Source: Haliclystus octoradiatus (lineage: Eukaryota; Cnidaria; Staurozoa; Stauromedusae; Haliclystidae). Taken from it: 64,000 nucleotides of DNA. The stretch is taken from positions 4,288,321 through 4,352,320 of the forward strand of contig OU744454.1 in the NCBI GenBank assembly GCA_916610825.1, read 5' to 3'. The notes beneath the pieces were generated by a model. The model did no database searches, had not been told where the DNA came from, and worked only from the letters and a program-made list of their open reading frames with translations. Numbering within the stretch: the first letter of the stretch is position 1; every line of letters starts with the position of its first letter. Positions 54,701-60,700 of the stretch are shown here, piece after piece. The position numbers and the translations under genes were made by a program.

Positions 54701-57700
54701 TTCGGATCACGTGCATGTTTATTGTTCATAACACAATGTATATTGTTGACATGAATTTATAACAGATTAGGCCTGCGTAGAACAATAGTTTCAAAGCGAG
54801 ACGGTTGAATTACGCTAAGCATAAATTCAACTTGTGCTCGCAGCGGTCGCCGGTCAATCTTGCCCCTTTAACTTGATGCTGTTCGATGCTAACTTTCCCA
54901 AAACCGATCTGATCCGATATAAATCCGATGCTACAATTTCGAAGCCCAATCCGATATAAATTTTCAAAATTTATTTATTTATACTAAATATGTGAAGGTA
55001 GATGTAGGATATTCCCTATTTTCACAGCATTCCTCAAGTTACGTACCATTAACCATGCATGTCCCAATGCATCATTTGATGTGATTCTTTCTTTAGGATC
55101 ATTTTCCAGCATTCTTTTTACAAGATCTTTTGCTTCATCTGATATATGTGACCATTGCTTAGAATCCATCTTAAAAAATAAAAGTACTGTGAAAATTGTG
55201 GAGGATATTAAACGGGAAAGATAATAATAGTTACATACTTCTTCAAAAGTACAGGCATCTAATAGTTATAGTGTGTCACTAGGTTACACAGTCAAAATTG
55301 TTGTAAACAGCACGTACATGCAGCAGACCCTTGTCTATAATGATCACTCTTGCAATGCCCAAAATAGTATTTCTATTGAATCAACCCTGTACATGGAGGT
55401 CACCTGCATATAACGGTCAATGTCTACACATCTTATACCTGGCTATAGGTTTCAGTTTCACTGTAAAGCCAAACGTAATTCAGCCTACGCAGTGTAAGAA
55501 GCCTTAACAGTTATGCTATGCTGGGAAACTTAGTTAAAAGCGTGCTATATCATGGACTTTTGTTCGCTATTTGACTTGATATATATTATTTGTCAACATC
55601 GTTGACAGGCCAATAAAGGAGAGTTTTAAAATAGCCAAGCCTTGCTTTCATCCAGCCTATAAACAGGTTAAAAATATCATGGAGATTATTATAATTAATC
55701 TTAGGTTGATAATAATTTAATATAATTGACGTTTAAATGAAGTATTAAGTATAAAAAACCAATGAATCAACATCTCCCTTGTCAACCTTGTCAAATGCAA
55801 GAAGCGTGGGTCGCACCAGGATTTGCTGTCAATAGGGAAAACTCCTCCACAAAAGAGCGATTATACAGATGAACCCGCTCAAGTGCAAATCGAATAAGTG
55901 AAATCCTCGTTTATGTGCAATCTGCTTTCAAAACTTTATTGAATATTTTGTTGGGATGAGTATTTCCGACAGATGGATGTATCCCCCTGTCCCCCTCTGG
56001 TTCCAACCCTTACACAGAGTATGAAAGATCATCTATTGAAAATTAATAAAATATAAAAACCAAAACAGGTAAACAATAAAATCAATCATTGACATACTGA
56101 ATATTTTCCTTCTGTGATTGATTCGAATATTTTTTCACCAGCACCATAAAATGGAAATGATCCACTGAGAAGAATATAGAGTATCACACCTATGAAGACA
56201 TATATAATGAAATATAAATATATATAGTACTAATATTATTTGTAAAACGTTGTATTACTGATTGAACATAGGGCTCAATGCAAAATATAGCAGAGCTTAA
56301 ATAATAATAGTCACAGAATCAGACAGTCATGTTTTCTACTTGAAGTTTCACGTCGAGGCGATCATCAGGCAATCTATTCAATCGAATATTGATATATATC
56401 TATTGACTAGATTGCCTGATGATCGCCTCGGCGTGAAACTTCAAGTAGTAAACATGACTGTCTGATTCTCTGACTATTATTAGTACTAATATTATAATGC
56501 AATATAAGGTAAAACACATATATGTGAAAATGCTCAATGTTTGTTAAAACAGAGCATAATATAAAATTGAGACAAAAATGAGGCAAAGCCTTTCCGTAAC
56601 TCCAAGTTTCAAATGTTTATTTCACGATCATCAGACGGTATGATGATCGTGAAATAAACATGTGAAACTTGGAGCTACCAAAAGGCTTTACCTCATCTTT
56701 GTCTCAATTTTATAGTACTAATATTAGAAATTTAAGATTTGCAATTGGATGGTGCTCAATGCATCGTGAATAGCAGAGTGTAAATAATAATAATGAGAAG
56801 GTCAAGAAAGATACAATCTGTGGTTGTAGCTTCAAGTTTCACGTCATAAACGATCATCAGACAATAGCGTTTGATAACGTGAAACTAGAAGTTACAACCA
56901 AAGAATGTGTCTTTCTTGACCTTCTCATTATTATTATTATTATTATTATTATTATTATTATTATTATTATTATTATTATTATTATTATTATTATTATTAT
57001 TATTATTATTATTATTATTATTATTATTATTATTATTATTATTATTATTATTATTATTATTATTATTATTATTATTATTATTATTATTATTATTATTATT
57101 ATTATTATTATTATTATTATTATTATTATTTCAATTCTATGTTTACATTAATGCATAACAATCAGGGTCCGACAAAATTAGGAAACCTGGAATCGTAGAT
57201 TTCTGAAGGTTAGAGCAAATTCAGAATAAAATTGATATTTTTATGATTTTTCGGTGAAACTTCAACAAAATATTCAGAAGAAAATGCTGAATGCTTATAG
57301 GAATTCCAGAAGGCTGAACCTTTTGTCAGACCCTGCTAACAATGATAACCTACCACATCCCCATACGTCAACAGCGCAATTGTACATCTCACGCTTGGCA
57401 ATTTCAGGTGCCATAAAATGTGGTGTTCCAATACGACCACTTTGTATATATCCGCAAGGTGGTAATTCCATTGCAACACCAAAATCACCCATTTTAACGG
57501 GTGCTGCGTCATCTTTGCTTGCTAACATCACATTGTGAGGCTAAATAAATAATGATAAATTGAAAAGCATAAAATTTTTTGTAGATGGTAGTACTGAGGA
57601 ACTTGCTTAACATTCCCCACTGGTGCAGATGGGAATGAGACATTAAGCGATGTGGGATAATAAAATGCGGTAGGAATACGAGAGTTTGTATGGAGAATGG

Positions 57701-60700
57701 AAAATTGGAATCAGTTTTATGTAGGGATATTAAGCAAGGTGGGACATTAAAAAAGGGATATTAACCGAGTTTGGCTGTACTACAGAGAAACTTGCTTGGT
57801 GAAAATCAAATGGCATTTATTACATCACATTTATTATTACTGATTACACATTGTTTCACAACTTTTTATAATATACAGTATAATAATAATAAACCATGCA
57901 ATATAGTAGAGATAGGGCAGTTAATCAAGAATTTCACATAATTAAGTTCCATTTAATTGAAAGTTGCATTTTACGAATTTTGTCTTTGTTATTTCAAAAA
58001 GTATAAAAGCGCAACTTTTTTAGAAAAAAACAGATTTTCATGGTGAATAATGAATTTATAATTTTCTGCAATAAAAATCGATTTAATCATCAATAAACTG
58101 ATAATTAATCACATTACAATCTTTCAAAAAATGTTACAGGGACAGACTTTGATGGTTGACACCCCATTTTCCATGTACACATCTGTACGCTTTCAGTATG
58201 CCTCCCCTGCCCCTCAGCTGATTACAGTCAAACCTCTTATAACAGTCACCTCTATACAGCGGCCACCTGTCTATAATGGTCACTCTTGCAATGTCTAAAA
58301 TAGTATTTCTATTGAATCAAACCTGTATATAAAGGCCACCTGTCTATAGTGGTCAATTTATCTACCTCTCATATCTGGCCGTTATATACAGGTTTCACAG
58401 TAAAGTGAAAAGTGTAAAGTGACAACAATAGACAGGGGGTCGCCGTATAAAAGTTACCATTATAACAGCTTTGAGTTTACCATTGGAGATTTTAAGCGGA
58501 TCAATAGTAAATTAACCACCTTGACTGTATTGAGGATTCAAGATACGAGAAAACAAAAATATGTAATGTTTCATTAGTTACCTTCATGTCCCGATGGACA
58601 ATGTTATGTGAATGACAAAATGCCAATGCCTCAAGAACTTGTCTCATATAATGACTGAAAAAAATAATAATAAGTAGAATACAGTCAAACCTGTTACAGT
58701 CAAACTTGCTTAATATCCCCCCTCTGGTACAGATGAAAAGCGGGACATTAAGCGAGGAAGGATTATGTGAGTTTGTATGGACAATGGAAAATAGAAATGA
58801 GTTTTATGTGGGGATATTAAGCAAGGTGGGATATTAAAAGAGGGGATAATAACCGAGTTTGACTTTATACCGGTAACCTCTATCAAGTGACCACCTGTCT
58901 ATAGTGGTCGCTACTGGTGAGTCTTAATTTTTTTTCTATTGAATCAATCATGTATAAAAAGGCCACTTGCATATAGTGATCAATTTATCTACCTCTCATA
59001 GATGGCTGTTCTATACAGGTTTCACTGTATGACTGTAGAATACAAAGGTACAGATGGATATTTAAGTAACATAGGCATGTCGCTGCCTGCATATGGGAAA
59101 AAGCTTCCAAAGGTATTTGCAGGGTCCGACAAAGGCAGGAATCTTTGAATCATAGATTCTGGTAGGTGGAGCAAATTTTGAAGAAAATTGATATTTTTAT
59201 AATTTATTGGTCTAACCTCAACAAGAAATTCAGAAGAAAATGTTAAAATGCCTCTAGGGCTCTATGATTCCAGAAGGCTGGGTACTTGTAAAGCTGCAAT
59301 GTGATTGCCATACTTGGCTAGGTTGACAATCAACATGTCTTTTCTTCCAAGCCACAGTGTCCGTCAAAAGGTTTGAAGGAAATTTGATGTTTTATGAATC
59401 AAGCTTATTTTATTCTAAACAAACATGCGGCATGCATGCAGATGCATTAAAACATTGATATCACTGTTAATTCTTATTGGATCGGCTTCAAACTTTTATC
59501 AATCGAATTTTCAGTATATGTACACCAGAACCAATCACTTATCAGAAACAGGGTCCAACAAAAGGTTCATCTTTCTGGAATCCTGTCCGAGGCATTTCAA
59601 CATATTCTTCTGAATTATTTAGTTGAGGTTTGAATAGGGGTGGGACGATGGAGGAATTTTTCTCAAACGGTTAACCAGATAAATAACAGTAATAGCCGGT
59701 GGTCATAAATTATCAATTCTCTTCTGAATTTGCTCTAGCCTTCCGGAGTCTAGGATTGCAAAATCAATACCTTTGTCGGACCTTGATTAGAAAGAAATTT
59801 TATCAGTACCCCTATTGGAATACTGTTGTCTGACTATTTCAATTTGACTACAAATTTTATTTACATACCTTGCAACAGATTCACTGTATACGAATCCAGC
59901 ATTAACACGATTGACAATTTCATAACATAAATCTGATCCGTCCATACTGTAGGAAATAGAGAGAATGATGTTAAAATCCAGTAAGCATGTTAACTGCACA
60001 GTCAAACTCAGTTACTGCCCCCCCTTTTCCAGTGTCCCCCTTTCAATCTCCTTTCTTGCATAATATCCTTACCTACATAAAACTGATTTTCATTTTTTTG
60101 CTCAAATTTACCATGCATGCACAAATAACAGTTTTCAGATTCAAAACTTTGTGTATTTATATCTGGGAAATCTATGGCACTTTGAATGATTCGGACTTGG
60201 TCAGATCAGATTAAAAAGTCTGAATCCGAATTTTTTTTTCTGGATTGTTCTCATTCGGATCCGATACAGATTGAGAAATTTTTAAACATTTGGACTACTA
60301 GAACATAATCTGATCCGATGCAGACCTCTAATTTATAACAAATCTACTTTTGAATTTACGTCACTTGCCAGATCACTATAAACAAGTGGCTGACACAAAG
60401 AGATGACCATTATGACAGGCGGTACGAGTGCGTCAACATTAAATGAGAGATAATTGACAGGTTAATAATTAAGAGTGTACTCACTATTCTGTAATCATGT
60501 AGACCACATTTTTATCATGATATGCTTCGATTAGTTCAACTGTCAAAGAAAATAAATATTTTAATAAAAATCAGATACTGTAATAGGTGTGAATATATAA
60601 AGTTATGTTTATAGGCAGGGTTCGACAAAATGTTCGTCAGCTTCCTGGAATCCAGAGGCATTTCAACATTTTCTTCTGAATTTTTTTGTTGAAGTTTGAC

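Follow-up and report, generated by a model that had tools for sequence, protein, structure and literature searches.

A CASK gene in Haliclystus octoradiatus, a stalked jellyfish, encodes canonical metal-binding residues together with an arginine in place of the beta3 lysine

The metal-binding residues of human CASK depart from the canonical motifs of kinases. In alignments with PDB chains, the CaMK domain of the wild-type protein (PDB 3c0g, 6kmh, and 3tac) reads KPHC and GGFG, with Cys146 and Gly162 in addition to Pro22, Lys41, and His145. CaMKII has the canonical Asn and DFG, a Lys in strand beta3, and Glu, not His, before the Asn. The engineered variant CASK-4M (PDB 3mfr, 3mfs, 3mft, and 3mfu) has Asn146 and Asp162 together with Ala22 and Glu145, keeps Lys41, and reads KPEN and GDFG in 3mfr. 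The beta3 Lys of the VAIK motif is itself replaced in other kinases. STRADalpha has Arg at this position (Arg100), which meets the Glu of helix alphaC, and is devoid of the HRD Asp, of the Asn, and of DFG. WNK kinases, which lack the VAIK Lys, supply a Lys from subdomain I. Here, we analyzed a minus-strand locus of Haliclystus octoradiatus, a stalked jellyfish (staurozoan cnidarian), in a stretch of 64,000 nucleotides of chromosome 9 (C11:4288321-4352320), designated below as the window. This locus is the CASK gene of H. octoradiatus. As read from the DNA, its product is the reverse of human CASK, since the metal site is kept (Asn146 and Asp162, with Thr22) and the beta3 Lys is lost (Arg41). 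What is new is thus a CASK predicted to have an intact metal site but no beta3 Lys.

The initial annotation of the window had assigned positions 57354 to 58654 to a CASK kinase domain with canonical HRDMKPHN and GDFG motifs. These limits are the outer ends of exons 6 and 7, and CASK was the top PDB family for the joined exon 6-7 fragment, with seven distinct CASK sequences as the best matches (E values of 5.3e-53 to 8.8e-52) and CaMKII as the next family (best E value of 6.5e-33). Both motifs were found in the minus-strand translation, HRDMK in exon 6 and PHNV...GDFG in exon 7, each exon being preceded by AG and followed by GT. The contrast drawn with human CASK was also correct for KPHC and for a metal loop without Asp, but the residue number given for the Gly at the DFG position (178) has to be replaced by 162 in the ungapped human alignment. 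Positions 22, 145, 146, and 162 are occupied by Thr, His, Asn, and Asp in Haliclystus CASK versus Pro, His, Cys, and Gly in the human wild type. Canonical residues of the Haliclystus protein include G19, G21, E62, D141 of HRD, K143, N146, D162, F163, G164, and the APE motif. Like Haliclystus CASK, CASK-4M has Asn146 and Asp162, and it slightly outscores wild-type CASK in comparisons with the Haliclystus domain (457.2 against 453.5 bits), although the two proteins differ at positions 22, 145, and 41.

The initial annotation had left two options for this site, an ancestral state that was either kept or regained. The simplest account of Asn146 and Asp162 is that a Mg2+ site present in the ancestor was retained. 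Retention requires no change, because kinase loci of the same genome have Asn in 30 of 31 cases and Asp in 29 of 31 cases at the columns of CASK residues 146 and 162. The control set comprised 30 of 140 Pfam matches plus one added CaMK-like locus, which shares its gene with one of the 30; the underlying assembly totals about 262 Mb, distributed over 33 pieces. Regain of Asn and Asp from a Cys/Gly ancestor would require three or more reverse base substitutions (TGY to AAY and GGN to GAY) versus none for retention, and the composition of the own-genome loci at these columns also argues against it. His145 favors regain to the extent that, being common to human and Haliclystus CASK, it may indicate that part of the human-type change predates the split of the two lines. 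Overall, we regard regain as very unlikely. Since His145 is common to both proteins, the comparison suggests that the step to His145 came first and preceded the loss of Asn146 and Asp162 on the human line. Mukherjee and others reportedly proposed in 2010 that a primordial Mg2+-coordinating CASK turned Mg2+-inhibited early in animal evolution. If this proposal holds, early animal CASK bound Mg2+, so that Asn and Asp in a cnidarian CASK are not very surprising. A 2010 study reports CASK in a placozoan, in cnidarians, and in bilaterians, and not in the sponge Amphimedon; a 2024 study reports CASK in every metazoan that it included.

The presence of canonical metal-binding residues had led to the expectation that the protein acts as an ordinary Mg2+-using kinase, provided that the Gly-rich loop and the VAIK Lys, expected in two upstream exons past 64 kb, were intact. 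Both exons were recovered on the minus strand, at 69129-69071 and 68819-68707, in window-extended coordinates (positions past 64,000 refer to four adjoining stretches added beyond 64 kb). These exons encode an intact Gly-rich loop (IGKGTFCVV). The Lys is replaced by Arg41, encoded by AGA, in the motif FAARIV, which aligns without gaps to human FAVKIV; exon 2 translates as GTFCVVKRCIEKNTNQQFAARIVNV and onward, and its junctions with exons 1 and 3, at GT-AG sites, preserve the reading frame. Thus, this expectation does not hold, since the intact VAIK Lys on which it depended is missing, an outcome that the initial annotation had itself named as a refutation. The interpretation given there is supported in part. 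Among the 20 own-genome kinase loci that cover the beta3 column (it is uncovered in 11 of the 31), 16 have Lys, 3 have a Lys beside a gap-shifted position, 1 has Gln, and none has Arg; 4 of the 16 Lys loci (L032 to L035) look identical over the motifs. The quality value (QV) of the assembly, 56.6, argues against a base error at codon 41, and A-to-I editing is unable to generate a Lys codon from a genomic AGA. In the open-licence literature, we found no account of Arg in place of the beta3 Lys in CASK, which does not in itself show that the change is unpublished.

The gene model was obtained by spliced alignment with human CASK over window-extended positions 69300-37000 of the minus strand. The human sequence used aligned without gaps to the CASK chains of the PDB. 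The model consists of 29 exons encoding 892 residues plus the start Met, and 483 of 878 aligned residues are identical to human CASK. The frame is open, with no stop codon along the traced 29-exon chain, some linker exons of which are weak (the weakly supported exons are 12, 13, 15, and 16). The GT-AG borders provide no independent support for the model, because the spliced alignment permits GT-AG introns alone. A tblastn comparison of human CASK with the window retrieved pieces extending from kinase residue 56 through the end of the guanylate kinase (GK) domain. Pfam identified, in this order, Pkinase (model residues 12-276; 4.8e-72), one L27, PDZ, SH3_1, and Guanylate_kin, and the domain order is that of human CASK. 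The region of the second L27 domain was aligned to the human protein within weak exons 15-16 and gave no Pfam L27 match. CASK was the best PDB family for the kinase domain, wild-type chains matching over 304-305 residues with E values of 3e-135 to 4.4e-135; CaMKII, which came next, lacks the MAGUK half that Haliclystus CASK possesses. A scan of the contig collection for CASK orthologues returned just 10 loci, which are 24-29% identical and belong to records with bacterial titles. The features of the gene, all on the minus strand, are as follows.

69129-69071 (window-extended), minus strand: CASK exon 1, translates as MDDLIEGYPSKYEIKEQIG and ends two bases into a Lys codon
68819-68707 (window-extended), minus strand: CASK exon 2, completes the Lys codon of exon 1, then reads GTFCVVKRCIEKNTNQQFAARIVNVTQMTATTGLNIT
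61366..61416, minus strand: CASK exon 3, helix alphaC, KREIS with Glu62 kept (spliced model)
60485..60539, minus strand: CASK exon 4 (spliced model, tblastn)
59869..59946, minus strand: CASK exon 5, contributes to the Trp pocket, where human CASK binds Mint1/liprin
58582..58654, minus strand: CASK exon 6, start of the catalytic loop, ends with NIVHRDMK; its first base completes the preceding codon
57354..57540, minus strand: CASK exon 7, starts with PHNVML (Asn146), then GDFG (Asp162) and APE
56098..56189, minus strand: CASK exon 8 (spliced model, tblastn)
55047..55169, minus strand: CASK exon 9, end of the kinase domain (spliced model, tblastn)
52802..52885, minus strand: CASK exon 10, autoregulatory segment (spliced model, tblastn)
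52250..52289, minus strand: CASK exon 11 (spliced model)
50579..51318, minus strand: CASK exons 12-13, low confidence, linker, with a 200-base N run between them (50668-50867)
49989..50110, minus strand: CASK exon 14, first L27 domain (spliced model, Pfam L27)
46460..46926, minus strand: CASK exons 15-16, low confidence, second L27 region (spliced model)
44033..45846, minus strand: CASK exons 17-19, linker and PDZ domain (spliced model, Pfam PDZ)
42576..43522, minus strand: CASK exons 20-21, linker and SH3 domain (spliced model, Pfam SH3)
41339..41820, minus strand: CASK exons 22-24, end of SH3 and hook region (spliced model, tblastn)
37171..40856, minus strand: CASK exons 25-29, guanylate kinase domain, then TAA (spliced model, Pfam Guanylate_kin)

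When the whole genome was searched with the 276-residue kinase domain, 88 matches were obtained among the best 140 of 163 candidates. Seven of them are at the CASK locus (66-95% identity) and 81 lie elsewhere with at most 49% identity (the best of these by E value, on C5, had 40%). No second CASK kinase domain was thus found, a negative result that is limited to the kinase domain because the query excluded the rest of the protein and neither of the two shortest exons was matched separately. Similarly, no alternative exon 2 was found in the window and the adjoining stretches, the exon 2 query matching only itself below an E value of 2. The readings of the locus as a pseudogene or as one of two copies were dropped on these grounds. 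An assembly error or a pseudogene would account for Arg41 in another way, and the 200-base N run inside the gene and an extended tandem array within intron 2 could be taken to point in this direction. However, the QV, the absence of a stop codon along the traced chain (with GT-AG borders built in and some linker exons weak), the lack of a second kinase domain, and the location of exon 2 outside the tandem array make this explanation extremely unlikely.

We propose that Haliclystus CASK is probably a scaffold, with a canonical metal pair and Arg41, that may bind Mg-ATP and would perform little or no phosphotransfer. According to this model, Asn146 and Asp162 would have been kept rather than regained, and Arg41 would remain able to contact Glu62, keeping the N-lobe in its closed form, by analogy with Arg100 of STRADalpha. 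A nucleotide, probably Mg-ATP coordinated by N146 and D162, may still bind, whereas phosphate transfer would be absent or very weak. The domain would mainly serve protein docking, as suggested by the L27-PDZ-SH3-GK half of the protein. A review on pseudokinases describes catalysis as absolutely dependent on the beta3 Lys, or on a substitute Lys, in several canonical kinases and in the JH2 domain of JAK2; several canonical kinases reportedly do not need this Lys to bind nucleotide. In the structure of STRADalpha, two waters bridge Arg100 and the alphaC Glu, and ATP is bound; activity is undetectable. The kinase domain of Haliclystus CASK shares 167 of 265 residues with the human domain (63.0%, no gaps), compared with 78.0% (PDZ), 50.7% (SH3), 50.9% (GK), and 29.6% (L27 stretch), within domain limits that we set; comparison of the first value with the others indicates that the kinase domain is constrained.

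Several observations weigh against the scaffold proposal. Human CASK itself shows that activity can be misjudged from the reading of motifs. The inactivity of STRADalpha cannot be pinned on its Arg alone, because the HRD Asp and DFG are also lost in that protein; Haliclystus CASK retains both of these as well as the Asn that STRADalpha lacks. The designation of the metal site as ancestral relies on outgroup kinases and on the proposal attributed to Mukherjee and others. With respect to nucleotide binding, the review on pseudokinases also states that some pseudokinases need the beta3 Lys to bind nucleotide. The residues contacting Mint1, taken from a crystal structure paper, are identical to human ones at 5 of 7 positions in the Trp pocket and 3 of 8 positions in the second site, against a domain average of 63%; those of the liprin second site, taken likewise from another paper, are identical at 2 of 3 positions. 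Conservation of the docking sites is thus near or below the domain average and does not support a scaffold role.

The same residues can be read as those of an active Mg2+-dependent kinase in which Arg41 would replace the Lys well enough, the other catalytic residues (G19, G21, E62, D141, K143, N146, D162, and APE) being canonical. We consider this improbable. Haliclystus CASK has Cys24 at what we take to be the place equivalent to the WNK Lys, so that no Lys is present where WNK kinases have their own. The pseudokinase review bears on both sides, since it cites an active kinase without a typical beta3 Lys and the activity of WNK kinases with a Lys elsewhere, but also describes the beta3 Lys or a substitute as absolutely required in the kinases that it names. 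Alternatively, the domain may be a recently dead kinase, in which a young, lineage-specific K41R substitution would have abolished activity and Asn146 and Asp162 would linger for want of time, with nucleotide binding under no selection. A single transition suffices to generate the AGA codon if the prior Lys codon was AAA, and the remaining motif residues are intact. This explanation, which overlaps with the scaffold proposal, is possible, although we give it a limited chance.

Additional features were observed in the introns of the gene. The tandem array of intron 2 (about 4 kb, from 62752-64000 on to about 66740 in window-extended coordinates) has units near 125 and 375-396 bases and lies between Arg41-bearing exon 2 and exon 3. 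Very long, near-perfect microsatellites were found at 48580-49112 ((ATCT), about 133 copies, 100% match), 50164-50504 ((TTA), 114 copies), 18523-18921 ((TAATAA), 66 copies), and 56927-57130 ((ATT), 68 copies), three of the four within modelled CASK introns. A dispersed repeat, possibly a short mobile element, is present in both orientations in CASK introns (54387-54524, 55286-55466, 58222-58402, 58850-59029, and 61452-61632), with copies that are 63-94% alike. Two palindromes of a CASK intron (56302-56482 and 56557-56717; arms of 80-84 bases, 90-94% complementary, spacers of 1-13 bases) are possibly hairpin-forming mobile elements or their remnants.

Outside the gene, a plus-strand open frame of 240 aa (36027-36749), convergent with the 3' end of CASK, encodes a phosphotyrosine-interaction (PTB/PID) domain (E value of 1.1e-6). 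A second plus-strand frame (20137-20478), without a Pfam match, resembles mitochondrial elongation factor G. The minus strand carries a tRNA gene at 24970-25064 (Rfam, 41 bits). Elsewhere in the genome, a kinase-like open frame at G000:C7:19607240-19611016 (L008) has Gln where the VAIK Lys is expected and, in the alignment to CASK, lacks the Asp of DFG; it is a possible pseudokinase. Six similar kinase-like matches are clustered near G000:C7:5291616-5440633, each with one in-frame TGA, which may be intronic, and with HCN in place of HRD. The 18,316-base mitochondrial contig, scanned in two halves with ARAGORN, yielded only a Met tRNA and one tRNA with a UCA anticodon (labelled SeC under the bacterial code); its cox1 is oriented against cox2-atp6-cox3, and the frames at its two ends resemble polymerases by eye. 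We take this organization as medusozoan, contrary to a demosponge origin, which mitochondrial code 4 had suggested.

The weight of the Arg41 finding hinges on whether other cnidarians share this residue. A natural orthologue with an intact metal site and a replaced beta3 Lys would help to separate ATP and Mg2+ binding from catalysis without engineering. A 2022 paper calls the functional relevance of the unusual kinase activity of CASK unclear. Arg41 would suggest that catalysis was given up more than once in the CASK family. More specifically, we raise, as a tentative proposal that we hold at somewhat less than an even chance, that separate animal lineages each lost or weakened the kinase activity of CASK by a different route, through the metal site on the human line and through the beta3 Lys in the stalked jellyfish. 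If this is true, it would suggest that the shared selected role of the CASK domain is docking, perhaps gated by nucleotide, rather than phosphorylation.

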